The notes beneath the pieces are model-generated. The model had not been told where the DNA came from. It did not search any database and was given only the letters and a program-made list of their open reading frames with translations. Shown in pieces: positions 1 to 14,137 of a DNA stretch of 64,000 nt. Made by a program: the position numbers and the translations under genes. Location: positions 124,001 through 188,000 of the forward strand of contig NZ_CP004387.1 in the NCBI RefSeq assembly GCF_000299335.2, read 5' to 3'. Origin of the DNA: Isoalcanivorax pacificus W11-5. GTDB taxonomy: Bacteria; Pseudomonadota; Gammaproteobacteria; Pseudomonadales; Alcanivoracaceae. Each line of letters starts with the position of its first letter. The first letter of the stretch is position 1.

Positions 1-393
1 GCGCAGCCCGGTGCGGGCGCGCGGCAGCAGGTAGGGCGCGTTGCTCATGCTTTCCATGCCGCCGGCGATGATGGCGGTGGCGTCACCGGCGCGGATCGCC
101 TGGGCGGCGAGTTGCACGGCTTTCAGGCCGGAGCCGCAGACCTTGTTCAATGTGGTGGCCGGCACTGCGTGTGGCAGGCCGGCGTGCAGTGCCGCCTGCC
201 GGGCCGGGTTCTGCCCGGCGCCGCCGGTCAGCACCTGGCCCATGATCACTTCATCAATGGGTACACAGGGTGCTTCGTCCAGCAGGCGCCGGATGACGAT
301 GGCACCCAGTTCGACGGCACTGAGGTTGGCCAGCGCGCCCTGAAAGCGGCCGATGGGCGTACGGGTGGCGGCGACGATCACGGCGTCGTGCAT
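1..393 (-). CDS. Acetyl-CoA acetyltransferase (thiolase), N-terminal part, cut by window edge
   Basis: This is the N-terminal 131 residues of a thiolase whose 3' end lies beyond base 1. Thiolases of this family cleave acetoacetyl-CoA with CoA to two acetyl-CoA. Visible family signatures are the N-terminal [13 protein letters not shown] block and the nucleophile-bearing [11 protein letters not shown] segment, with the reactive cysteine at residue 86. The ATG at 391-393 follows an AGGAG-like ribosome site. It is the third gene of a minus-strand operon behind scoA and scoB (16-nt gap), so its likely job is to finish acetoacetate breakdown started by the CoA-transferase. Function is confident by family; exact chain-length preference is inferred from context. 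Confidence 0.93.
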
Positions 394-409: not shown

Positions 410-1069
410 TCAGGCGAAGGTCATTTCCGGCACATGATCGGGCACGATCAGCTGGCCGGCGGTTTTGCCGGCGATCTCGTCCACGCTGACGCCCGGTGCG
501 CGCTCTTTAAGATGGAAGGCACCGTCGGCGATTTCCAGATAGGCCAGGTCGGTCAGCACGCGGCGGATGCAGCCGGCGCCGGTCAGTGGCAGGGTGCAGG
601 CCGGCAGCAGCTTTGATTGCCCGTCCTTTGCGCAGTGCGTCATGGTGACGATGATGTTGTCGGCGCCGGCGACCAGGTCCATGGAGCCGCCCATGCCCTT
701 GATCAGTTTGCCCGGCACCATCCAGGAGGCGATGTTGCCCTGCACATCGACTTCAAAGGCGCCGAGCACGGTCAGGTCGATATGCCCGCCACGGATCATG
801 GCGAAGGATTCCGCCGAGGAAAAAATCGACGCGCCCGGCAGCGCCGTCACGGTCTGCTTGCCGGCGTTGATCATGTCGGCGTCCAGCGTGTCCTCGGTGG
901 GGAACGGCCCCATGCCGAGCAGGCCGTTTTCCGATTGCAGCATCACCTGCATGCCGTCGGGAATGTAGTTGGCCACCAGCGTCGGGATGCCAATGCCCAG
1001 GTTGACGTAGAAACCGTCCTGCAACTCGCGCGCCACGCGGCGCGCCATCTGTTCGCGTGTCAGAGTCAT
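410..1069 (-). CDS. scoB: 3-oxoacid CoA-transferase subunit B
   Basis: This is the 219-residue beta subunit of a family I CoA-transferase, of the expected length. With ScoA it moves CoA from succinyl-CoA to acetoacetate in the cytoplasm, giving acetoacetyl-CoA. The SENGLLG motif contains the catalytic glutamate (residue 47), which forms the glutamyl-CoA intermediate in this family, and the GIGIPT loop lies at 25-30. The gene sits 15 nt after scoA and 16 nt before the thiolase, so the three form one operon for acetoacetate use. Acetoacetate is exactly what the HMG-CoA lyase encoded at 6.9 kb releases. The acid specificity (acetoacetate versus adipate-type acids) cannot be proved from sequence alone. 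Confidence 0.93.
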
Positions 1070-1084
1070 GGAATTCCCCGTGGG

Positions 1085-1789
1085 TCAGGCGGACAGCGTG
1101 CGCTGCTCGATGCGTTTCTCGAACTGGCCGCACAGCAACCGGTCCACGTAGATGCCGGGGGTGTGGATCTGGTCCGGCGGCAGCGTGCCGGGTGGGACAA
1201 TTTCTTCCACCTCGACCACGGTGATGCGGCCGGCGGTGGCCGCCAGCGGATTGAAGTTCTGCGCCGTGTGGCGATAGATGACGTTGCCGTACCAGTCCGC
1301 CTTCCAGCCTTTGACAATGGCGAAGTCGCCGCGAATGGCGTGCTCCAGCACATAATGACGGCCGTCGAATGCGCGGGTTTCCTTACCCTCGGCCACGGGG
1401 GTGCCGTAGCCGGTGGCGGTGTAGAAGGCGGGAATGCCGGCGCCGCCGGCGCGCATTTTTTCTGCCAGGGTGCCCTGGGGGGTCAGTTCCACTTCCAGTT
1501 CACCGTCCAGCATCTGCCGTTCGAACAGCGCGTTCTCGCCGACATAAGAGGCGATGATCTTGCGAATCTGGCGGTCCTCCAGCAACACGCCCAGGCCGAA
1601 GCCGTCGACGCCGCAGTTGTTGGAAACCACGGTCAGGTCGCGGGTGCCGCGCTGCTGGATCGCGCGGATCAGGTTCTCGGGGATGCCGCACAGGCCGAAG
1701 CCGCCGGCGATCAGGGTCATGCCGTCTTGCAGCCCGGCCAGGGCGTCCTCGACGGAGGCTACGCGTTTATCAAATCCCGCCACTGTCAT
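1085..1789 (-). CDS. scoA: 3-oxoacid CoA-transferase subunit A
   Basis: This is the 234-residue alpha subunit, first gene of the scoA-scoB-thiolase operon. The [12 protein letters not shown] signature of family I CoA-transferase alpha subunits is at residues 29-40, and length is normal. It provides the CoA-binding partner for ScoB. The gene is divergent from a LysR-type regulator gene, and the 111-nt intergenic region carries a 10-bp inverted repeat (1867-1894). LysR regulators commonly control the divergent operon, so acetoacetate-responsive control is plausible but inferred. The ribosome site upstream of the chosen ATG (GAGGC) is short and close, so a small shift in start is possible. Confidence 0.93.
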
Positions 1790-4031: not shown

Positions 4032-5465
4032 TCACGGTTGCAGGCTGGCGCGGAACGCCGGGTCGTCCAGATAGGCCACGTTCAATCGGGTCCAGGGGAC
4101 GATATGACGCCGGTCGACGGAAAAGATGGAACCCGGCGCCAGCATCACGCCACGTTCCAGACAGCGACGTGTTAATTCATTCGCGTCATCCACGCCGGGA
4201 AAGCGCGCCCACAGATACAGACTCTGCTCCGGGCGGCAGAAGACTTCCGCGCCCAGTTCATCCAGCACGGCCAGGCCCCGTTCGGTGGCGTCGCGCAGCC
4301 GCTCCTGCAGGCGCGACAGGTGCCGCAGATAATTCCCTTCGCGCAGAATCACGTTCACCGTGCGTTCGGCATACTCCGCACTGCTGGTGTGCAGCAGCAT
4401 TTTCACATCCGCCAGTTCGCTGACCATGGCCTCGTCGCCGGCAATGAAACCGACCCGCAACGCAGCGGAAATCGGTTTCGAAAAACTGCCCAGGTACAGC
4501 GTGCGCCGGAACTGATCCAGCGCCGACAGCTTGACCGATGAGCTGAGTTTGAAATCCGCCATGGCGTCGTTCTCGACCACGATCAGATCATGCTGGCGCG
4601 CCAGGGCGAGAATGCGCTGTGCTTTCTCGGCTGACAGGTCCGTGCCGGTCGGGTTGTGCCCGGCCGATTGCATAAAGAACAGCGCCGGTTTTTCCCGCGC
4701 TAGCAGATGCGCCAGTTGCGTGGTGTCCGGGCCATCCACCTGTCGCGTCACCGGCAGCATGCGCGCGCCCTGCAATTGCAGCTTGCCGAACAGCGGATAA
4801 TAACCCGGGCTTTCCACCAGTACCGGATCACCCGGTTTGACGAAGCGGCGGATGATCAGGTCCATGGCGTGGTTGGCGCCGAAGGTGGTGACGAACTGCT
4901 GCGGCGTGGCGCTGATGCTGTACCCGGCCAGTTTCTTCACCAGTTGCTGGCGCAGGTTGATGTTGCCGAGCCGGTCGCCGTAGCGGAACAGGGTGGTGAT
5001 GCCGCTGCGCACCACCTGCCGGTTGAACTTGTCCAGGCGCATGTCCATCAGCCAGTCCACCGGCGGGAAGCCTTCGCCCAGGTGCGAGTGCCCCGGCTCG
5101 CGCACGAACTGCTGGCGCATCATCCAGATGGTGTCCAGCGCACGGGCGTACGGCGGTGGCTCCGGCTCGGCCTCGGGCGTGGCCGGCGTGGCGCAGACGA
5201 AAAAGCCCTGCCCGTGGCGGGCTTCGATCAGCCCTTCCCCGGCCAGGTACTCATACGCTGTGATCACGGTGTTCTTGGAATGGCCATGCAGGCGCATGTA
5301 CTCGCGCAGCGACGGCAGCTTGTCGCCCTGGCGCAGGGCGCCTTCGGTGATCTGCCGGGTAATGTCGGCGGCCACGCGCTGGGCCAGGGTGAGGCGCTGC
5401 ATGAGAGGGGGCACTCTGTCTTCCACCTTGGTCGTACTATCCGACAGATAATGACTGTTTGCCAT
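4032..5465 (-). CDS. MocR-type (GntR/aminotransferase-like) PLP-dependent regulator
   Basis: This 477-residue protein joins a GntR winged helix-turn-helix (about residues 25-92, with GDKLPSLREYMRLHGHSKNTV) to a fold-type I aminotransferase domain (about 125-475). The PLP-binding lysine is K330 in the SFSKPISAALRVGF segment, and the NPTG motif is at 271-274. Members of this family are transcription regulators that sense PLP or an amine or amino-acid ligand. It is divergent from mvaA with a 100-nt gap that contains an inverted repeat (5468-5490). It may therefore regulate itself and the HMG-CoA operon. The ligand is not predictable from the sequence. Confidence 0.9.
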   Translation of the reverse strand: MANSHYLSDSTTKVEDRVPPLMQRLTLAQRVAADITRQITEGALRQGDKLPSLREYMRLHGHSKNTVITAYEYLAGEGLIEARHGQGFFVCATPATPEAEPEPPPYARALDTIWMMRQQFVREPGHSHLGEGFPPVDWLMDMRLDKFNRQVVRSGITTLFRYGDRLGNINLRQQLVKKLAGYSISATPQQFVTTFGANHAMDLIIRRFVKPGDPVLVESPGYYPLFGKLQLQGARMLPVTRQVDGPDTTQLAHLLAREKPALFFMQSAGHNPTGTDLSAEKAQRILALARQHDLIVVENDAMADFKLSSSVKLSALDQFRRTLYLGSFSKPISAALRVGFIAGDEAMVSELADVKMLLHTSSAEYAERTVNVILREGNYLRHLSRLQERLRDATERGLAVLDELGAEVFCRPEQSLYLWARFPGVDDANELTRRCLERGVMLAPGSIFSVDRRHIVPWTRLNVAYLDDPAFRASLQP

Positions 5466-5565: not shown

Positions 5566-6852
5566 GTGAGCATCAGTTCAAACCTTCCCGGTTTCCGTCA
5601 TCTTTCCCCCGCCGAGCGGCTGGACTACCTGCAGACGCAGCTGTCCCTGTCCGACGACGAAGCCGGCCTGCTGCGCAACGCCGGCGCGCTGCCGATGGAG
5701 ATTGCCGACGGCATGATCGAGAACGTGATCGGCAAGTTCGAGCTGCCGCTCGGGCTGGCCGGCAACTTCCTGATCAATGGCCGCAATGTACTGGTGCCGC
5801 TGGTGGTCGAGGAGCCGTCGGTGGTGGCGGCGGCCTCCTACATGGCCAAGCTGGCCCGGCCGGCCGGTGGTTTCTTCACCTCCAGCAGCACACCGCTGAT
5901 GCGGGCGCAGATCCAGATCGTCGGCCTGGCCGACCCGGCCAACGCGCGCCTGAGCCTGTTGCGGCACAAACAGCAGATCATCGAGCTGGCCAACAGCAAG
6001 GACCAGCTCCTGAACAAACTGGGTGGCGGTTGCCGCGACCTGGACATCCATACATTCCCGAGCAGCCCGCGCGGCCCGATGGTGGTGGCGCATCTGGTGG
6101 TGGACGTGCGTGATGCCATGGGCGCCAACACCGTCAACACCATGGCCGAGGCCGTGGCGCCGCTGATGGAGAAGATCACCGGTGGCACCGTGCGCCTGCG
6201 CATTCTCTCCAACCTGGCCGACCTGCGCCTGGCCCGTGCCCAGGTGCGGATTGCACCGGAGCACCTGGAGACAGCGGACTACCGGGGCGCGGACGTGATC
6301 GACCGCATTATTGATGCCTATACGTTTGCCGCCATCGACCCGTACCGGGCGGCGACGCACAACAAGGGCATCATGAACGGCATCGATCCGCTGATTGTCG
6401 CCACCGGCAACGACTGGCGCGCCGTGGAAGCCGGTGCGCACGCCTATGCCTGCCGCAATGGCCACTACGGCTCGCTGACCACCTGGGAAAAAGACGCCGC
6501 CGGCCATCTGGTCGGCACCATCGAAATGCCGATGCCCGTGGGCCTGGTGGGTGGCGCGACGAAAACGCACCCGCTGGCACGCCTGTCGCTGAAGATTCTT
6601 GGCGTGCAGACCGCACAGGAGCTGGCGGAAGTGGCGGTGGCCGTAGGGCTGGCGCAGAACCTGGGCGCCTTGCGTGCACTGGCGACGGAAGGCATTCAGC
6701 GCGGCCACATGGCGCTGCATGCGCGCAACATCGCGTTGTCCGTGGGCGCGCGTGGCGAGGAAGTGGACGCGGTGGTGCAACGCATGGTCGCGGCCCGCGA
6801 CGTACGCGCCGACCACGCAGAAGCGCTGCTGCGCGCACTGCGGGGCGCCTGA
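5566..6852 (+). CDS. mvaA: Hydroxymethylglutaryl-CoA reductase, degradative class II
   Basis: This 428-residue class II HMG-CoA reductase oxidises mevalonate with CoA to HMG-CoA. The four catalytic residues known from the Pseudomonas mevalonii enzyme fall at the same positions here: E83 in [10 protein letters not shown]267 in [10 protein letters not shown]283 in GNDWRAVE and H381 in [10 protein letters not shown]146 is also present; in that enzyme it favours NADH over NADPH, consistent with a catabolic direction. The start is GTG, 7 nt after AAGGGGT. It leads a long plus-strand operon and is followed 2 nt later by HMG-CoA lyase, the same pairing as the mva operon of P. mevalonii. No mevalonate-kinase pathway genes are nearby, which supports degradation rather than synthesis. 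Confidence 0.97.
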
Positions 6853-6854
6853 AC

Positions 6855-7775
6855 ATGGACGCGGTGAAGCTGGTCGAGGTCGGTGCGCGCGATGGCTTGC
6901 AGAACGAATCCCGTGTGCTGCCGGCCGCCGTGCGGGCTGCGCTGATCAACCGGCTGGTCGAGGCGGGCCTGACACACATCGAAGCCGGTTCGTTCGTGTC
7001 GCCGCGCTGGGTGCCGCAGATGGCGGACACTGACGAGGTGTTGCGCCAGCTTGTTCAGCGCACAGGTGTGACCTACAGCGTGCTGGTGCCAAACAGCCAG
7101 GGCATGGCCGCCGCCGTGGCCAGTGGTTGTCGCGAGGTGGCCGTGTTTGCCGCTGCCTCGGAAGCGTTTTCACTGCGCAACATCAACTGCACGATTGAAG
7201 AAAGCCTGGCGCGCTTTGCGCCGGTGATCGACAAGGCGAACGCCGAAGGGATCGCTGTACGCGGGTACGTCTCCTGCGTGCTGGGTTGCCCTTACACCGG
7301 CAGGGTAGCGCCGCAACAGGTGGTGGCGGTCAGCAAGCGTCTTTATGAGATGGGCTGTCAGGAAATCAGCCTGGGCGACACCATCGGCGCCGGCACGCCC
7401 GGCGCGGTAAAACAACTGGTTTCTGCCTGTGCCGTGGAATTGCCGCTGGCTTCGCTGGCGGTTCATTTTCACGACACCTGGGGCATGGCCGTGGCAAACT
7501 GCCTGGCCGCGCTGGACGCGGGCGTGCGCACCTTTGACAGCTCCGTGTCCGGCCTGGGCGGCTGCCCTTATTCGCCGGGTGCCACCGGTAATGTGGCGAC
7601 CGAAGAACTGGTCTATCTGTTCAGCGGCCTGGGCCTGAATACCGGTGTTGACCTTGCTTCGCTGATACAGGCCGGTGGCTATATCGACGAACAACTTGGC
7701 AGGACAACGTCATCCCGTGTGGCACGGGCATGGCGCGCAAAGCACAGGGTGCAGCACGAAGAAGCAACAGGCTGA
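6855..7775 (+). CDS. mvaB: Hydroxymethylglutaryl-CoA lyase
   Basis: This 306-residue lyase of the DRE-TIM (HMGL-like) family splits HMG-CoA to acetyl-CoA and acetoacetate. Metal and active-site features are present: VEVGARDGLQNE with R12 and D13, the VHFHDT histidines at 204 and 206, and the GLGGCPYSPGATGN loop with C237, the cysteine typical of true HMG-CoA lyases. The ATG starts 2 nt after the mvaA stop, so translation is coupled. The acetoacetate it makes would feed ScoAB and the thiolase at the left end of the window. A related family, citramalyl-CoA lyase, is homologous, so a second activity on similar CoA esters cannot be excluded. Confidence 0.95.
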   Translation: MDAVKLVEVGARDGLQNESRVLPAAVRAALINRLVEAGLTHIEAGSFVSPRWVPQMADTDEVLRQLVQRTGVTYSVLVPNSQGMAAAVASGCREVAVFAAASEAFSLRNINCTIEESLARFAPVIDKANAEGIAVRGYVSCVLGCPYTGRVAPQQVVAVSKRLYEMGCQEISLGDTIGAGTPGAVKQLVSACAVELPLASLAVHFHDTWGMAVANCLAALDAGVRTFDSSVSGLGGCPYSPGATGNVATEELVYLFSGLGLNTGVDLASLIQAGGYIDEQLGRTTSSRVARAWRAKHRVQHEEATG

Positions 7776-7867: not shown

Positions 7868-9097
7868 ATGAACAACGAAACCGGCATTCCGGTCGCCAGA
7901 AGCGGCCCGCTGACGGGCGTCGTCATCCTGGATCTGACCCGTGTGGTGGCAGGCCCCTACTGCGCCATGCTGCTGGCGGACATGGGCGCGACCGTGATCA
8001 AGATCGAGCACCCGCAGGACCCGGACCTGACGCGCGAATTTCCGCCGCTCCAGGGTGCCGACGGTAACGCCATCAGCGGTTTCTTCGCGCAGTACAACCG
8101 TAACAAGATGGCGGTGAGCCTGAACCTGAAACAACCAGCCGGGCGCCAGACGTTTCTGGATATGGTGCGCAAAGCGCACATCGTGATCGAGAATTTCCGC
8201 CCCGGCACCATGGAAAAACTGTCGCTGGACTATGCCACGCTGACAGAGGCCAACCCGGCCATCATTCTCACCAGTATCAGCGGCTTCGGGCAGCAGGGCC
8301 CGAATGCACCGCGCCCGGCGTTTGACAGCAGCGCGCAGGCGTCCGGCGGCCTGTGGTCCATGAATGGCACGGTGGAAGAACCGATGCGCGTGGGCACGGT
8401 GCTCGGGGATCTTTCCGCCGCCCTGTACGGTGCCATCGGCACGCTGGCTGCGTTGCGCGAAGCCGACAGGACGGGTCACGGCCAGTGGGTGGATATCTCA
8501 CAGCAGGATTCAATCATTTCGCTGACCGAAAACGCACTGGTCACCTACACCGCCACCGGCAAGATCACTGTGCCGGAAGGCAACGGCCATCCGTTTGTGA
8601 AGCCCTACGGCCGCTATGCCTGCAAGGACGGCTACGTTTTCTTCGGCGCCTACACCGACAAGTTCTGGCGCGAGGCGTGCATCGTGTTTGGTGACGAAGC
8701 GCTGATCACGGATCCGGAAATAGACACCATGGCCAAGCGCTTCAATCCGGACGTGCATGATCGCCGCGTCAAGCCGATTGTCGAAGGCTGGTGTGCCCGT
8801 CACACCAAGGCGGAACTGGAAGCCATGACCGGTGCGCGTTTCCCGCTGTCGCCGATCAAGGGTATCGACGAAGTGGTGGCCGATCCGCATGTACGCCAGC
8901 GCGACATGGTGATTCCCGTGCAATACCAGGGCGTGGATTTCGAGGTGTTCGGCAACCCGGTGAAATTGTCCGGGGGCACCTGCGAACAGCACGCCAGTGC
9001 GCCCGGCGTGGGTCAGGACAACGAGGCGATTTACGCCGGCTGGCTTGGCAAGGACGAGGACGAACTGGAAACACTGCGCCGCAATGGCGTGATCTGA
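7868..9097 (+). CDS. CaiB/BaiF family III CoA-transferase
   Basis: This 409-residue family III CoA-transferase has LDLTRVVAGPYCAMLLADMGA near the N-terminus (about 22-41), which is typical of the family. D153 in AFDSSAQASG aligns with the catalytic aspartate that forms the aspartyl-CoA intermediate. The start is set by GGAGG five nt before ATG 7868; the frame is open further upstream but without a better site. It lies 92 nt after mvaB, inside the HMG-CoA operon. Family members activate dicarboxylates from succinyl-CoA; human SUGCT acts on glutarate and hydroxymethylglutarate. A role in activating free HMG, methylglutaconate, mesaconate or itaconate is the best inference. The substrate is not proven. 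Confidence 0.9.
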   Translation: MNNETGIPVARSGPLTGVVILDLTRVVAGPYCAMLLADMGATVIKIEHPQDPDLTREFPPLQGADGNAISGFFAQYNRNKMAVSLNLKQPAGRQTFLDMVRKAHIVIENFRPGTMEKLSLDYATLTEANPAIILTSISGFGQQGPNAPRPAFDSSAQASGGLWSMNGTVEEPMRVGTVLGDLSAALYGAIGTLAALREADRTGHGQWVDISQQDSIISLTENALVTYTATGKITVPEGNGHPFVKPYGRYACKDGYVFFGAYTDKFWREACIVFGDEALITDPEIDTMAKRFNPDVHDRRVKPIVEGWCARHTKAELEAMTGARFPLSPIKGIDEVVADPHVRQRDMVIPVQYQGVDFEVFGNPVKLSGGTCEQHASAPGVGQDNEAIYAGWLGKDEDELETLRRNGVI

Positions 9098-9138
9098 TAC
9101 GACGCTGCAACACAAACACTATTACATAACAAAGACGG

Positions 9139-10299
9139 ATGAATGCTATGAAACGTCAAGTGACCGCCGGCCTGATGCTGGCCTGCACCACCCTGCTCGG
9201 GGCTTTTACCCTTTCCGCTGAAGCGCGCACGCTGCGTTACGCCATCGGCCACCCACCCAGTTCGTTTGTGGTGGATGTGGCGAAGGAATACGCCGGCGCT
9301 GTCGAGTCACTCTCGGACGGCGACCTGAAAGTGCGTGTGTTCCCCATGTCGCTGCTGAACTTCGCTGAAACCTCCGGCGGCGTGCGTGACGGCATGGCTG
9401 ACATCGGCTTTGTGCTGACCTCCTACTTTGCCTCGGAATTCCCGCACAGCAACGTGGCGGTGGAAGCGTCCATGCTGGTCGGCCTGCTCGGCGACAAGGT
9501 GCGGGGCCGCGAAGGCATGGTGTTCATGGGCGCACTGTCGGAATACACCTTTTTCAACTGCCCGGAGTGCAACCGGGAATTTGCCCGCCAGGGGCAGGTG
9601 TACACCGGCAGCACCGGCGGTTCTTCCTATGGGCTGGTATGCAACCGGCCGGTAGAAAGCGAAGCCGACCTGCGCGGCATGCGCCTGCGTGTGGGCGCGT
9701 CGAACTGGTCGCGCTGGGCAGAAGCGGTCGGCGCCTCGCCGGTGACCATGTCTGCCAACGAAATGTTCGAAGCACTCAGCCAGGGCGTGGTGGGCTGCAT
9801 CGTGCTGGCCGCACCGGAGATCCATAACTTCGGTCTGACTGACGTGGTCAAGCATATCACCATGGACGTGCCTGGCGGCCCGATGCCGATTGCCGGGACC
9901 AACATCAACACCCGTACCTGGAAAAGCCTGTCGCCGGCACAGCGCACGGTGATGCTGCGTGCCGCCAGTGTTTTCTCGGCGGGTGTGCCCTGGATCTATC
10001 ACCAGCATGAAGACCGTATCCTGTCGGAAGCCGAAGACCGTGGTGTCACGCTGCACAAGGCTGACGCAGCGCTGATTGAAAAGACCCATGCCTTCGTTGA
10101 ACAGGACATGGCCACCATCGCCGAAGATTATCGCCGTCGCTACGGCGTGCAGAACGGCGCCGAGCTGATCACCACCTTCCGTGCGCTGCTGGACAAGTGG
10201 GCCGGCCTGGTACAGGACGTGGATTCCGAAGAAGCGCTCGCGGACCTGTACTGGAGCGAGATCTTCTCCAAGGTAGACGTCAACCAGCACGGTCTGTAA
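9139..10299 (+). CDS. dctP: TRAP transporter substrate-binding protein (DctP family)
   Basis: This 386-residue periplasmic binding protein has a signal peptide ending around SAEA. The fold includes LRGMRLRV and the conserved asparagine-containing segment near MSANEMFEALSQGVVGC, as in DctP proteins that bind carboxylates. A CPEC cysteine pair follows YTFFN, and other cysteines are present; this is unusual for a periplasmic solute-binding protein and may form disulfides. ATG 9139 and ATG 9148 are both possible; the second has GGATG 6 nt upstream. The permease genes follow only after two hotdog-fold genes. The ligand is inferred to be mevalonate or a branched dicarboxylate because of the neighbouring enzymes. 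Confidence 0.9.
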   Translation: MNAMKRQVTAGLMLACTTLLGAFTLSAEARTLRYAIGHPPSSFVVDVAKEYAGAVESLSDGDLKVRVFPMSLLNFAETSGGVRDGMADIGFVLTSYFASEFPHSNVAVEASMLVGLLGDKVRGREGMVFMGALSEYTFFNCPECNREFARQGQVYTGSTGGSSYGLVCNRPVESEADLRGMRLRVGASNWSRWAEAVGASPVTMSANEMFEALSQGVVGCIVLAAPEIHNFGLTDVVKHITMDVPGGPMPIAGTNINTRTWKSLSPAQRTVMLRAASVFSAGVPWIYHQHEDRILSEAEDRGVTLHKADAALIEKTHAFVEQDMATIAEDYRRRYGVQNGAELITTFRALLDKWAGLVQDVDSEEALADLYWSEIFSKVDVNQHGL

Positions 10300-10361
10300 G
10301 ACCGTGTCCGGCGCGGTGCCCTAGCACCGCGTCATGTCATCTCGCACAGGCAGGACAGGCC

Positions 10362-10817
10362 ATGACGCTGTTAACCGACGCACTGCGCGCACTGATCGGC
10401 ACCGAAGTGCCGCCGTTTGAATTCGAGATCAGTCGCAACGACCTGAAAAAATACGCCGTGGCCACCGGCCAGACCCGGCGTTGCTACCTGGATGGCGACG
10501 AAGCGCCGTTGCTGTTTCTGTTCAGTGCCATGATGCCGGTGATTCCGCTGGACCAGTTGCTGCCGGATGGTCGCCAGCCGGACAGTCCGCTGATACCCGA
10601 ACTGCCGCTCAAGCGCATCATGGCCGGCGGCAGCGATTACCAGATTCACCGCAAGGTACGCCCCGGTGATGTGCTGGTGTGCCGGCAGCGGCTGGCCGAT
10701 CTGTACGAAAAGAACGGCTCGGCCGGCCCGCTGATTTTCATGGTGTTCGAGAACCGCTTCGAGACGCGCTCTGGCGAGCCGGTGGTGATCGAGCGGCTGA
10801 CGAGAATTGCGAGGTAA
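10362..10817 (+). CDS. MaoC-like hotdog protein, FAS1-like dehydratase N-terminal type
   Basis: This 151-residue protein resembles the N-terminal half of two-domain MaoC-like hydratases (for example mesaconyl-C4-CoA hydratase and 3-methylfumaryl-CoA hydratase). Support comes from the opening helix region with YAVATGQTRR, the PLKRIMAGGSDYQIHRKVRPGD segment and the overall hotdog pattern. This type usually pairs with a catalytic C-terminal hotdog, encoded here by the next gene 4 nt downstream. AGGACAGG precedes the ATG. Location between dctP and dctQM in one operon suggests the pair hydrates an enoyl-CoA made from the imported substrate. Which enoyl-CoA is unknown. Confidence 0.8.
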   Translation: MTLLTDALRALIGTEVPPFEFEISRNDLKKYAVATGQTRRCYLDGDEAPLLFLFSAMMPVIPLDQLLPDGRQPDSPLIPELPLKRIMAGGSDYQIHRKVRPGDVLVCRQRLADLYEKNGSAGPLIFMVFENRFETRSGEPVVIERLTRIAR

Positions 10818-10821
10818 CGCC

Positions 10822-11226
10822 ATGACAACGCGATCCATCACCGTGGGCGATGCACTGCCCTCACGCGAATTCCGGGCGGACACCGTGCAGTTGTTCCTGT
10901 ACAACGCCGCGATCTGGAACCCGCACCGCATTCATTACGACCTGCCCTACACGCAGGCGGAAGAAGGCCATCCGCAGCTGTTGATTGACGGCCCGTTGCA
11001 GGGCGACTGGCTGACCCAGATCGTCTGCGACTGGCTGGGCGACGATGGCGACATGACCGGCTTTCGCTACAGCAACCGGCGTGCGGCGTATCTGGGTGAT
11101 GCGCTGGTGGCCCAGGCGCAGGTGACGGCGGTCGACGGCATGACAGCCACCGTGACACTGACTTTATCCAATACCCAGGGTGAAGTGGCGACAGAGGCAA
11201 CGGCCACGGTCCGCTTCCGGTCATAG
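10822..11226 (+). CDS. MaoC-like hotdog hydratase, catalytic half
   Basis: This 134-residue single-hotdog protein carries the IWNPHRIHYD motif at residues 31-40. The same NxHRIHYD core occurs in the catalytic C-terminal domain of mesaconyl-type and HTD2-type hydratases and dehydratases and provides the active-site Asn/His. It probably forms a heterodimer with the preceding protein. A GAGG ribosome site overlaps the upstream stop codon, so the two are translationally coupled. Together with the CoA-transferase and HMG-CoA lyase it could turn 3-methylglutaconyl-CoA into HMG-CoA, or mesaconyl-CoA into citramalyl-CoA. Both are inference. Confidence 0.82.
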   Translation: MTTRSITVGDALPSREFRADTVQLFLYNAAIWNPHRIHYDLPYTQAEEGHPQLLIDGPLQGDWLTQIVCDWLGDDGDMTGFRYSNRRAAYLGDALVAQAQVTAVDGMTATVTLTLSNTQGEVATEATATVRFRS

Positions 11227-11259: not shown

Positions 11260-11838
11260 ATGTATCGGTTAGGGCGTTGGCTTTCCCGGCTGACAGATGC
11301 CACCACCCTGGTGGGTGGCCTGGCCATTGCGATGATGATGCTGCACATCACGGCGGACGTGGTGTTGCGCTTTGTCTTTTCCATCACCATTCCCGGCACC
11401 ATCACCTATGTCGCCAACTACTACATGGTGATCGCCACGTTTGTGCCGCTGGCCTATGCGGAAAAACTCAACGCGCATATCAGCGTCGAGGTGGTCACCG
11501 AGCGGCTGCCGCAGGCGCTGCAACGGCACCTGGCCAACTGGCTGGTGCTGCTCAGTGCGGTGATCCTGGGCTTCATGACCGTCAAGACCTGGACCGAAGC
11601 GCTCGGCAAGTACGAGATGAACGCGGCCCTGGTCGAAGGTGGAACGACGATCATCACCTGGCCAGGTTATTTCATGCTGCCGCTGGGCATGGGCCTGATG
11701 GTGGTGGTGCTGGTGTACAAATTTCTCGTGTATCTGACCGGCGCCCGGTGTGGTCTGCAGGTGTCCGACGCGGAACGCGCGCTCAAGGATGAAGTGCGCG
11801 CCGACAGTCATGCCGGCGAGGGGGCGCGTCATGAGTGA
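11260..11838 (+). CDS. dctQ: TRAP transporter small permease (DctQ)
   Basis: This 192-residue inner-membrane protein has four hydrophobic segments (about 15-40, 52-70, 92-115 and 135-158), as expected for the TRAP small subunit. The motif region LNAHISVEVVTERLP after the second helix is typical. GAGGAGA precedes ATG 11260 by about 9 nt. Its last 8 nt overlap the start of dctM, so the two permeases are coupled. It works with DctP and DctM to take up the island's carboxylate substrate using a sodium gradient, as known for the family. Confidence 0.92.
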   Translation: MYRLGRWLSRLTDATTLVGGLAIAMMMLHITADVVLRFVFSITIPGTITYVANYYMVIATFVPLAYAEKLNAHISVEVVTERLPQALQRHLANWLVLLSAVILGFMTVKTWTEALGKYEMNAALVEGGTTIITWPGYFMLPLGMGLMVVVLVYKFLVYLTGARCGLQVSDAERALKDEVRADSHAGEGARHE

Positions 11839-13138
11839 TGTACAGATCGGCCTGAGCGGCCTGGCGGTGCTGTTTTTCCTGATCGCACTGCGCATGCCGG
11901 TGGGGCTGGCGCTGATCGGCGTCTCGTTCGGTGGCCTGTTGTATCTGATGGGCTGGGGCATTGCCTGGGGGTCGCTCGGCCTGATCCCGTATCAGTTTTC
12001 CGCCAACTGGGTGCTCAGTTCGGTGCCGATGTTCCTGCTGCTGGGGTACGTCTGTTACCACGCGCAACTGACGCAGGGTCTGTTCCGCGCTGCGCGACTC
12101 TGGCTCTCGGCGGTGCCCGGCGGCCTGGCGGTGGCGTCGATCTTCGGGACCACGGGTTTCGCTGCTGTGTGCGGCTCCTCTGTGGCCTGCTCTGCCGCCA
12201 TGGGGCGTGTCGCGGTGCCGGAAATGATCGCGCACAAATACAATCCTGGCCTGGCCACCAGTACGGTGGCGATTGCCGGCACCGTCGGTGCATTGCTGCC
12301 GCCATCGATCATCATGATCCTGTACGGCATCATCGCGCAGGAATCGATTACCAAGCTGTTCCTGGGCGGCATCACCGCCGGCCTGCTGACGGTGCTCGGT
12401 TACATCATCGTGGTGGTGGTGCGCGTCAAGCTGAACCCGGCGCTGGCACCGGCGCAGGAAGAACGGATTTCCCTGCGCGACCGGATCGTGGCGCTGTGGG
12501 ATATCTGGCCGATCATGCTGATCATGCTGGGTATCTTCGGCGGCATGTTTGCCGGCCTGTTCACGCCGACCGAAGCCGGGGCCGTGGGTGCTGCGTTGTC
12601 CTGTGTGGTGGCGTTGTGCAAACGCACGCTGACCTGGGAGCGCTTTCGCGCGGCGATTCTGGAAACCCTGCTCACCACCGGGACGCTGCTGATCATCGCC
12701 ATGGGCGCGAGCCTGTTGACGCGCTTTCTGTCGCTGTCCGGTGCCGGTGACTATTTGTCGTCGATGGTCATTGATGCCGGCGCCAGCACCGTTCTCATTC
12801 TGTGCATGATCGTGCTGATCTATCTTTTGCTGGGCATGTTCCTGGAGCCGATCGGCGCCATGCTGCTGACGTTGCCGATCGTGTTGCCGATCATCGACAG
12901 CGTGGGCCTGAGCCTGATCTGGTTCGGCGTGGTGCTGACCAAGCTGCTGGAAATCGGCATGGTCACGCCGCCGGTGGGCATGAATATTTTTGTCATCAAG
13001 AGCGTGGTGGGTGATCTGGTCACCACCGGCGCGATCTTCAAGGGCGTGTTCTGGTTCCTGGTCATGGATGCCGTGGTGCTGGCATTGCTGATGGTGTTTC
13101 CCGACGTGGTGCTGTACCTGCCCAGCGTGCTGGGCTGA
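11831..13138 (+). CDS. dctM: TRAP transporter large permease (DctM)
   Basis: This 435-residue membrane protein has about 12 hydrophobic segments and DctM hallmarks: SSVPMFLLLGY, TTGFAAVCGSSVACSAAMGR, the PPSIIMILYG turn, FTPTEAGAVGA and TPPVGMNIFVIK near the C-terminus. It forms the transport channel of the TRAP system. The start ATG lies within the dctQ coding end (8-nt overlap). The gene order dctP - hotdog - hotdog - dctQ - dctM is unusual because the binding protein is separated from the permeases by enzyme genes. Confidence 0.95.
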   Translation: MSDVQIGLSGLAVLFFLIALRMPVGLALIGVSFGGLLYLMGWGIAWGSLGLIPYQFSANWVLSSVPMFLLLGYVCYHAQLTQGLFRAARLWLSAVPGGLAVASIFGTTGFAAVCGSSVACSAAMGRVAVPEMIAHKYNPGLATSTVAIAGTVGALLPPSIIMILYGIIAQESITKLFLGGITAGLLTVLGYIIVVVVRVKLNPALAPAQEERISLRDRIVALWDIWPIMLIMLGIFGGMFAGLFTPTEAGAVGAALSCVVALCKRTLTWERFRAAILETLLTTGTLLIIAMGASLLTRFLSLSGAGDYLSSMVIDAGASTVLILCMIVLIYLLLGMFLEPIGAMLLTLPIVLPIIDSVGLSLIWFGVVLTKLLEIGMVTPPVGMNIFVIKSVVGDLVTTGAIFKGVFWFLVMDAVVLALLMVFPDVVLYLPSVLG

Positions 13139-13168: not shown

Positions 13169-14137
13169 ATGCTGAGTGTGGTGGCGGATAACACAGATCA
13201 GACCCTGGCGCTGCCGATGAACAACGGCCAGGCGATGGCGGCGTATTTTTCGCGCCATGATGCACTGGTGGGCGGCGCGCACGCCGGGGTGTCGGTGCGC
13301 GAACGCACGCTGGCCGGGTACGGGTTGCTGCGCGCGCGGTATGGCGCCGGGAGTTGCTTCGAGGTGTCCGGGCGCAAGGACTGCCACGCGCTGTGCGTGG
13401 TGCTCTCCGGGGTCAGCAACTGGCATCATCGCGACCAGAGTCTGCAACTGAGTGCCGGGGATGTGGTGGCGCTCAACCCTGCCGACGCGTTCACCATTTC
13501 ACACTGTTCGCCGGCAGAATACCTGGTCTTCAGAATGCCGTCGGCGTACCTGGAGCACAAAGCCACCGAGTATGGCTACCATGTGCCGGCACCGGGCGTG
13601 CGCTTCCGCACGGAAAAAATTGCCACCGACGATGCGTTGCGGCTGTATCACCTGCTCAGTGCCCTGCATCAGGAAGATGGTGCCAGTGTTTCCGGCGCCC
13701 AGATCATCGGCCCCTATGCGAGCATCATCGCGCACCTTGCCATCACTCGCCTGCCGAATAACCTGCGTCGCTTCCACATGACGCGCCCGGCGCTGAACCC
13801 GTTGATCGAACGGGTGCGCCGCTATGTGATAGAACATCGCACGGAAGATATCCGCGTGGAAGCGCTGGCCAGCCTGTGCCGGCTCAGCGTGAAATCGGTC
13901 TATAACCTGTTCGAGCGCGAGCTGGGCATCAGCCCGTCGCTGTATGTGCGCAACCTGAAACTGGAATTCGCGCACATTGCGCTGACGGAAAACGGACGTG
14001 CGCGCAATGTCACGGAAGTGGCGCTGGAATATGGCTTCCGCAATCTCAGCCGCTTCGCCAGTTATTACCGGGAGTGTTTCGGCGAATTGCCGTCGCAGAC
14101 ATTGCGCCGCACCGGGCAGCAGGCATTCAGCGGCTGA
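13169..14137 (+). CDS. AraC-family transcriptional regulator
   Basis: This 322-residue protein has an N-terminal cupin-like sensing domain (AraC_binding_2 type, with LSAGDVVALNPAD) and a C-terminal AraC double helix-turn-helix (about 215-315). The second helix-turn-helix is seen in VTEVALEYGFRNLSRFASYYRECFGELPSQ. It is the last gene of the HMG-CoA/TRAP operon, 30 nt after dctM with AGAGGG upstream of the ATG, so it probably controls the operon in response to its substrate. Its 3' end overlaps the convergent hydrolase gene by 11 nt. Confidence 0.92.
   Translation: MLSVVADNTDQTLALPMNNGQAMAAYFSRHDALVGGAHAGVSVRERTLAGYGLLRARYGAGSCFEVSGRKDCHALCVVLSGVSNWHHRDQSLQLSAGDVVALNPADAFTISHCSPAEYLVFRMPSAYLEHKATEYGYHVPAPGVRFRTEKIATDDALRLYHLLSALHQEDGASVSGAQIIGPYASIIAHLAITRLPNNLRRFHMTRPALNPLIERVRRYVIEHRTEDIRVEALASLCRLSVKSVYNLFERELGISPSLYVRNLKLEFAHIALTENGRARNVTEVALEYGFRNLSRFASYYRECFGELPSQTLRRTGQQAFSG

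Follow-up and report, generated by a model that had tools for sequence, protein, structure and literature searches.

A CoA-transferase/hydratase cassette in the mevalonate operon of Isoalcanivorax pacificus and other bacteria: a candidate entry route for an unsaturated relative of mevalonate

The operon and its extra genes

We analysed a 64,000-nucleotide window of Isoalcanivorax pacificus W11-5 (contig NZ_CP004387.1, positions 124,001 to 188,000), whose genome is a single contig of 4,168,427 bases. Here, the degradative genes for 3-hydroxy-3-methylglutaryl-coenzyme A (HMG-CoA) reductase (HMGR) and HMG-CoA lyase (HMGL) share an operon with a family III coenzyme A (CoA) transferase (CaiB) and a hydratase split over two genes (HYD1 and HYD2). 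The gene row, HMGR-HMGL-CaiB-DctP-HYD1-HYD2-DctQ-DctM, lies beside the regulator gene MocR, and all reading frames are intact. We conclude that CaiB and the hydratase, together called the cassette, very probably form a side entry that serves the mevalonate operon. Family models and domain matches confirmed the genes and coordinates of the CoA-transferase, the split hydratase and the adjoining lyase given in the initial annotation, but its gene list omitted DctP, which stands between CaiB and HYD1.

CaiB matched PF02515 CoA_transf_3 with 385 bits (E 5e-115), and its catalytic Asp in the motif P-A-[FY]-D was found in 31/31 loci inspected among the 34 cassette loci described below. It scored below the models for succinyl-CoA:mesaconate CoA-transferase (NF041294, 297.1 bits, cut-off 700), succinate-glutarate/HMG CoA-transferase (NF052585, 245.3 bits, cut-off 750) and L-carnitine CoA-transferase (NF002914, 132.2 bits, cut-off 413). 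CaiB resembles SUGCT (succinate-HMG/glutarate CoA-transferase) in family, as seen from 9br6, deposited as succinate--hydroxymethylglutarate CoA-transferase (phmmer E 5.7e-50), but its NF052585 score is far under the cut-off. In Mct, the distal carboxylate of the substrate is held by Arg47 and Tyr136 (PMC9813914). We also considered acetoacetate as the CoA acceptor of CaiB and found this unlikely, since 3-oxoacid CoA-transferase genes adjoin the operon (410-1789) and acetoacetate activation thus does not explain a second CoA-transferase.

HYD1 carries the domain PF13452 FAS1_DH_region (E 7.8e-21), and no Pfam match was found for HYD2 or for 47 scanned members of its family. The HYD1 profile (45 sequences) matched itaconyl-CoA hydratase of Pseudomonas aeruginosa (8huc) over the N-terminal half of the chain (E 1.7e-9) and also HadA, and the HYD2 family profile matched 8huc over the C-terminal half (E 1.7e-12) and also HadB. 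The top PDB matches of the predicted folds were itaconyl-CoA hydratase for HYD1 (pLDDT 93.8) and a ChsH1-ChsH2 hydratase chain for HYD2 (pLDDT 89.1). By these profiles and predicted folds, HYD1 and HYD2 together seem to make up a single double-hotdog enzyme, one half each. HYD2 shares the HRIHYD-PY motif with itaconyl-CoA and mesaconyl-C4-CoA hydratases (Ich, Meh), in line with the mesaconyl/3-methylfumaryl-CoA type named in the initial annotation. Unlike the double-hotdog single chain of these enzymes, the window hydratase is encoded by two genes 4 bases apart, and it has IDGPLQGDWLTQ in place of the VVHGPL of 8huc. The residues N33, H35, R36, I37, H38 and D40 of HYD2 are invariant in 80/80 sequences (27 HMGR-linked, 53 others).

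The resemblance to itaconyl-CoA hydratase in HYD2 motif and profile, and a top CaiB model for mesaconate CoA-transferase, although far under its cut-off, would suit the use of mesaconate or itaconate through a citramalyl-CoA step, which the initial annotation had raised; the homologue of HMG-CoA lyase would then have to serve as citramalyl-CoA lyase. However, a scan of ten operon proteins matched no CitE-like (HpcH/HpaI) or other citramalyl-CoA-type lyase, both score and motifs mark the lyase as a canonical HMG-CoA lyase, and HMGR is constant. Moreover, a separate itaconate/methylsuccinate-type cluster is present in the same genome (L052:4584-11275, within G000:C1:1468000-1487000), with two family III CoA-transferases, a 275-aa FAS1_DH-type protein, an HpcH/HpaI lyase, an acyl-CoA dehydrogenase and an MmgE/PrpD protein. 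Such a gene set is described for itaconate/methylsuccinate use in PMC12290011. We therefore regard the citramalyl-CoA route as highly improbable.

The HMGR-linked HYD pairs form one clade (27/80, local support 1.0). Position 58 of HYD1 is Met in 27/27 HMGR-linked sequences and Arg in 37/54 relatives. None of the 53 other HYD2 sequences has HMGR in its gene list (stretches of 3.6 to 20 kb), and the HYD family at large is not tied to HMG-CoA, because some of its other members stand, for example, with CoA ligase and tripartite ATP-independent periplasmic (TRAP) transporter genes. Pairs with 55-61% identity outside mevalonate operons were seen at L064:3438-7067, L078, L068 and L077, with DctP-type proteins near; L064 and L078 additionally have a CoA ligase, along with proteins resembling short-chain dehydrogenases by eye.

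Table 1. Genes of the operon and its neighbourhood (window positions)
Feature	Position	Strand	Remarks
HMG-CoA reductase (HMGR), degradative, class II	5566..6852	+	TIGR00532 423.8 bits, cut-off 259.95
HMG-CoA lyase (HMGL)	6855..7775	+	NF004283 425 bits, cut-off 246; Arg-Asp and GLGGCP motifs
Family III CoA-transferase (CaiB-type), cassette gene 1	7868..9097	+	PF02515; Asp153 at catalytic place
TRAP solute-binding protein DctP	9139..10299	+	Between CaiB and HYD1
HYD1, FAS1_DH/HadA-like hotdog hydratase half, cassette gene 2a	10362..10817	+	PF13452
HYD2, hotdog hydratase half, NPHRIHYD motif, cassette gene 2b	10822..11226	+	Profile and fold
TRAP small permease DctQ	11260..11838	+	
TRAP large permease DctM	11831..13138	+	
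MocR/GntR-type pyridoxal phosphate-dependent regulator	4032..5465	-	Divergent from operon; homologue in 32/34 cassette loci
AraC-type regulator, next plus-strand gene	13169..14137	+	
3-oxoacid CoA-transferase subunit A, acetoacetate activation	1085..1789	-	
3-oxoacid CoA-transferase subunit B	410..1069	-	
Acetyl-CoA acetyltransferase (thiolase)	1..393	-	Truncated by window edge

The intergenic gaps from HMGR to DctM are 2, 92, 41, 62, 4, 33 and -8 bases. Terminator-like sites numbered 14 on both strands, against 6.0 expected; those on the plus strand all lie within genes, and none lies between operon genes. The promoter scan returned a single site on the opposite strand, which is within chance (1.8 expected). 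The AraC-type regulator has no homologue beside the operon in ten Alloalcanivorax-type loci (L041-L050). The best solved match of HMGR is 1qax, the HMG-CoA reductase of Pseudomonas mevalonii.

An optional cassette with a constant partner

The same arrangement recurs in other genomes and is therefore not a product of chance. Cassettes of CaiB and a hydratase were found in gamma-, beta- and alphaproteobacteria and in Rhodococcus. We counted 34 distinct loci, pruned from 66 rows with CaiB of at least 45% identity, plus L319; the loci are related and were partly chosen via HYD2 or HMGR, and the 34 are thus not independent. Dropped rows were short loci from places already represented (L133-L139, L295-L310) or repeat entries for a contig already present (L053, L055-L060, L062, L251, L260). 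L311, where tblastn split CaiB in two and the PLSDB gene table has no entry for it, was counted as a cassette and kept outside the CaiB distance test. Gene borders in the retrieved loci come from a simple gene finder, and gene presence was recounted by searching open frames with tblastn or blastp. The named-genome scan covered the best 80 of 166 relatives.

The mevalonate operon of the P. mevalonii type is mvaAB. By family models the window operon resembles this type in having HMGR and HMGL, and differs in the added CaiB and hydratase. Among 22 Pseudomonas HMGR operons (21 retrieved loci and L122 of genome G418), only 3 have CaiB-HYD1-HYD2, placed ahead of c7-TctA; the other 19 have HMGR-(HMGL)-c7-TctA beside MocR, without the cassette. 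It was likewise found in 0/31 Burkholderiaceae places retrieved (33/343 genomes matched), and Herbaspirillum L085, also Burkholderiaceae, has it. Smaller sets (L176, L177) consist of a regulator, a transporter and HMGR, with no CaiB and no hydratase. Since most of the Pseudomonas and Burkholderiaceae operons and the smaller sets do without them, CaiB and the hydratase look, from gene content, dispensable for the breakdown of mevalonate itself and like an optional extra. This agrees with the premise of the initial annotation that mevalonate degradation needs neither enzyme. A search of 46 family genomes gave a close homologue of HYD2 in ten other genomes; they all belong to a single genus, and each carries the operon. 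No title or abstract opening met in our literature searches describes the cassette. Most Burkholderiaceae HMGR operons (L263-L293) carry a gene of about 400 codons directly after HMGR, often followed by a second of about 420.

The hydratase is of two kinds. It is the MaoC pair in 29 of the 34 loci and, in the other five, an orthologous crotonase adjoining CaiB. The five are G403 and G400 (the window genus), whose operons have scoA/scoB and LysR for neighbours, like that of the window, Rhizobium sp. CC-CFT758, one more alphaproteobacterium and Rhodococcus pseudokoreensis. The CaiB orthologs at these loci show 51-59% identity, and four of the crotonases are 63-77% identical to that of L173. In 5/5 cassette crotonases, glutamates occupy both places of the catalytic pair named for enoyl-CoA hydratase in PMC4619459. 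The top NCBIfam model for the crotonase substitute is EchA19 (265 bits, cut-off 400). Since the MaoC pair can be replaced by an unrelated crotonase, hydration as such appears to be conserved across cassettes. In Rhodococcus, HMGR-HMGL and CaiB-crotonase lie in divergent units, and a gene annotated as MaoC family dehydratase, under the HYD1/HYD2 thresholds, is found close to the crotonase but on the opposite strand (L312). In Pseudomonas sp. RIT-PI-AD, a second CaiB paralog (48%) and then a different crotonase lie just downstream of the cassette operon (L066:13926-15947). This crotonase is 31% identical to the cassette crotonase, and the gene string thus holds a second CoA-transferase/hydratase pair.

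We found HMGR in all 34 cassette loci, MocR in 32 and HMGL in 28. The six loci without HMGL belong to the Alloalcanivorax-type genus (four), the window genus (one) and an alphaproteobacterium (one). In the four Alloalcanivorax-type cassette genomes and in G400, the sole lyase match (E<=1e-40) is a distant paralog of 40-41% identity. Divergent HMG-CoA-lyase paralogs (37-41%) were present in 18/18 family genomes examined (L181:8801-9724, L182:8728-9651); at L182, two proteins of DctP type, 44% and 49% identical to the operon DctP, lie near the paralog, with no permease genes in view.

In searches driven by CaiB, and thus blind to HMGR, 19/19 orthologs adjoined HMGR. These came from Pseudomonas (3/249, E<=1e-100), family genomes (13/46, E<=1e-90), alphaproteobacteria (1/289, E<=1e-95) and plasmids (2 above 50% identity among 209 matching records). 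The ortholog cut is a natural one, because plasmid identities fall from 50.7% to 39%; three additional genomes (E<=1e-60) gave CaiB matches of 34-39% only. No CaiB ortholog without HMGR was found within the sets searched. All 3 Pseudomonas orthologs fall in the 22/249 genomes with HMGR, which has a chance of 6e-4 assuming independence, an assumption that does not hold. CaiB distances followed those of HMGR closely (Spearman 0.957, 33 loci), as did those of HMGL (0.944, 28 loci) and MocR (0.944, 32).

These partners bear on where the cassette enters the pathway. The initial annotation had proposed a direct entry at HMG-CoA, in which CaiB loads free 3-methylglutaconate or HMG with CoA from succinyl-CoA, and 3-methylglutaconyl-CoA, hydrated by the MaoC pair, becomes HMG-CoA for the lyase; several branched C6 acids would then be used by the operon. 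In favour of this route, the named models nearest CaiB are mesaconate and glutarate CoA-transferases, and the relative 9br6 is deposited as HMG-type. In addition, a CaiB paralog adjoins HMG-CoA lyase without HMGR in Roseomonas. The itaconyl-CoA hydratase nearest HYD1-HYD2 also hydrates mesaconyl-C4-CoA, a 3-methyl-branched dicarboxylyl-CoA, according to PMC12290011. Free HMG is natural; according to PMC11343714, Snodgrassella alvi consumes it through two first steps that are unannotated. However, such an entry needs no reductase, and HMGR is nevertheless present in 34/34 loci and HMGL missing in 6, so the proposal as it was worded is not supported. Free HMG alone would make the hydratase superfluous, and a sugar-type ATP-binding cassette (ABC) importer in two cassette operons is odd for a dicarboxylate. 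As a weak further point, the HYD1 Arg58 of most relatives is Met in the HMGR-linked sequences. We consider entry of 3-methylglutaconate or HMG less likely than not, but a close competitor of the reading favoured below.

The importer varies across cassette lineages, being of the TRAP, TctA or sugar-type ABC kind (the last in two cassette genomes), and a Peripla_BP_6 binding protein adjoins both alphaproteobacterial cassettes. This variety would suit some other compound whose use converges on mevalonate or HMG-CoA, such as the opposite enantiomer of mevalonate, dehydrated and then rehydrated, or a natural ester or amide of a 3-methyl-2-enoate. So would the hydantoinase/oxoprolinase A-B pair directly upstream of CaiB-crotonase in R. 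pseudokoreensis (L312:5716-11991), which may free an acid from a cyclic amide or imide. No particular candidate of this kind has positive support, however, and we find such a compound unlikely. The Pseudomonas TctA-type transporter is similar with and without the cassette (87-100% and 76-91% identity to that of L074, respectively), and the cassette substrate may therefore resemble mevalonate.

Proposed entry upstream of mevalonate

Degradative HMG-CoA reductase takes free mevalonate. We favour an entry upstream of mevalonate because HMGR, the user of free mevalonate, is the invariant partner of the cassette and the lyase is not. Anhydromevalonate (5-hydroxy-3-methylpent-2-enoate) is the acyl group of the fungal coprogen and fusarinine siderophores, and it is our tentative choice as the cassette substrate, plausible though short of probable; all substrates named here and the recycling of CoA are what we infer from genes and their order.

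Family III CoA-transferases work with dehydratases in several couples (CaiB with CaiD; FldA, HadA), in which the product hands its CoA to the next substrate; the carnitine and phenyllactate systems are examples. In the proposed route, the importer would take up an unsaturated mevalonate relative, most likely anhydromevalonate, and CaiB would place CoA on it. The hydratase would then hydrate the 3-methyl double bond to give mevalonyl-CoA, from which CaiB would pass the CoA to the next anhydromevalonate, letting free mevalonate go. HMGR, run oxidatively, would convert mevalonate to HMG-CoA, HMGL would cleave this, and the adjoining 3-oxoacid CoA-transferase and thiolase would complete the use of acetoacetate.

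The window operon is like the carnitine CaiB/CaiD couple and those of FldA and HadA in having one family III CoA-transferase and one enoyl-CoA hydratase, in some relatives a crotonase. It differs from the carnitine system in a CaiB under the L-carnitine CoA-transferase cut-off and in mevalonate as the expected product. In fungi, anhydromevalonyl-CoA is made from mevalonate by the CoA ligase SidI and the hydratase SidH, as stated in PMC3709128. The chemistry proposed here is the same interconversion of mevalonate and anhydromevalonyl-CoA, but in the reverse direction, with a CoA-transferase in place of the ligase and, in the window, a MaoC fold. The reading that the operon itself makes siderophore precursors, from HMG-CoA through mevalonate to anhydromevalonyl-CoA, was considered and is unlikely, because the operon has import genes and a lyase, and the proteins scanned include neither an acyltransferase nor a peptide synthetase.

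Several observations weigh against anhydromevalonate and an upstream entry. The nearest enzymes of known function act on dicarboxylic acids, both the CoA-transferases nearest CaiB (mesaconate, succinate-glutarate) and the itaconyl-CoA hydratase that is the solved hydratase nearest HYD1-HYD2. The cassette crotonase of relatives has only a general match to SidH and is not specially close to it (7oeq, 124 bits, against 182 for the top PDB match). No siderophore hydrolase was recognised in the operon, and no paper on bacterial growth on anhydromevalonate was found among the literature matches listed. The HYD pair tracks HMGR less than CaiB does (Spearman 0.706 for HYD1 and 0.798 for HYD2, 29 loci), which would fit CaiB having entered the operon before its hydratase. 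By parsimony, 7 gains or losses suffice on the midpoint-rooted tree of 88 HMGRs (cassette present for 34, absent for 54), which has several weak nodes, and the constancy of HMGR could merely reflect a cassette riding in HMGR operons. Finally, on a plasmid of Roseomonas haemaphysalidis (L314:6052-8179), HMG-CoA lyase is followed by the CaiB paralog (38.5%) with no HMGR in the 15 kb examined; CoA-transferase/lyase pairs can thus exist apart from mevalonate. TctC-type binding proteins and 3-isopropylmalate-dehydratase-like genes lie around that pair, which possibly has another use.

The full proposal, that a carnitine-like CoA-recycling couple with two interchanged, unrelated hydratase folds turns anhydromevalonate into mevalonate and feeds an oxidative HMGR, forming a cassette described in none of the literature matches listed, is one we hold more tentatively still than the choice of substrate.

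Implications for mevalonate-degrading bacteria

Taken together, the gene contents compared here suggest that some mevalonate-degrading bacteria probably also use an unsaturated relative of mevalonate through a CoA-transferase and an enoyl-CoA hydratase of the same operon. On either reading, the module is optional and its two hydratase folds can replace each other, so that a few small enzymes are enough to test the question. If 3-methylglutaconate or HMG were the substrate, the cassette would provide a gene for activation of the free acid; in the bee symbiont Snodgrassella, the first two steps of HMG use are unannotated (PMC11343714). If anhydromevalonate is the substrate, the cassette would be a bacterial sink for a building block of fungal siderophores and would give the degradative HMG-CoA reductase an upstream pathway.

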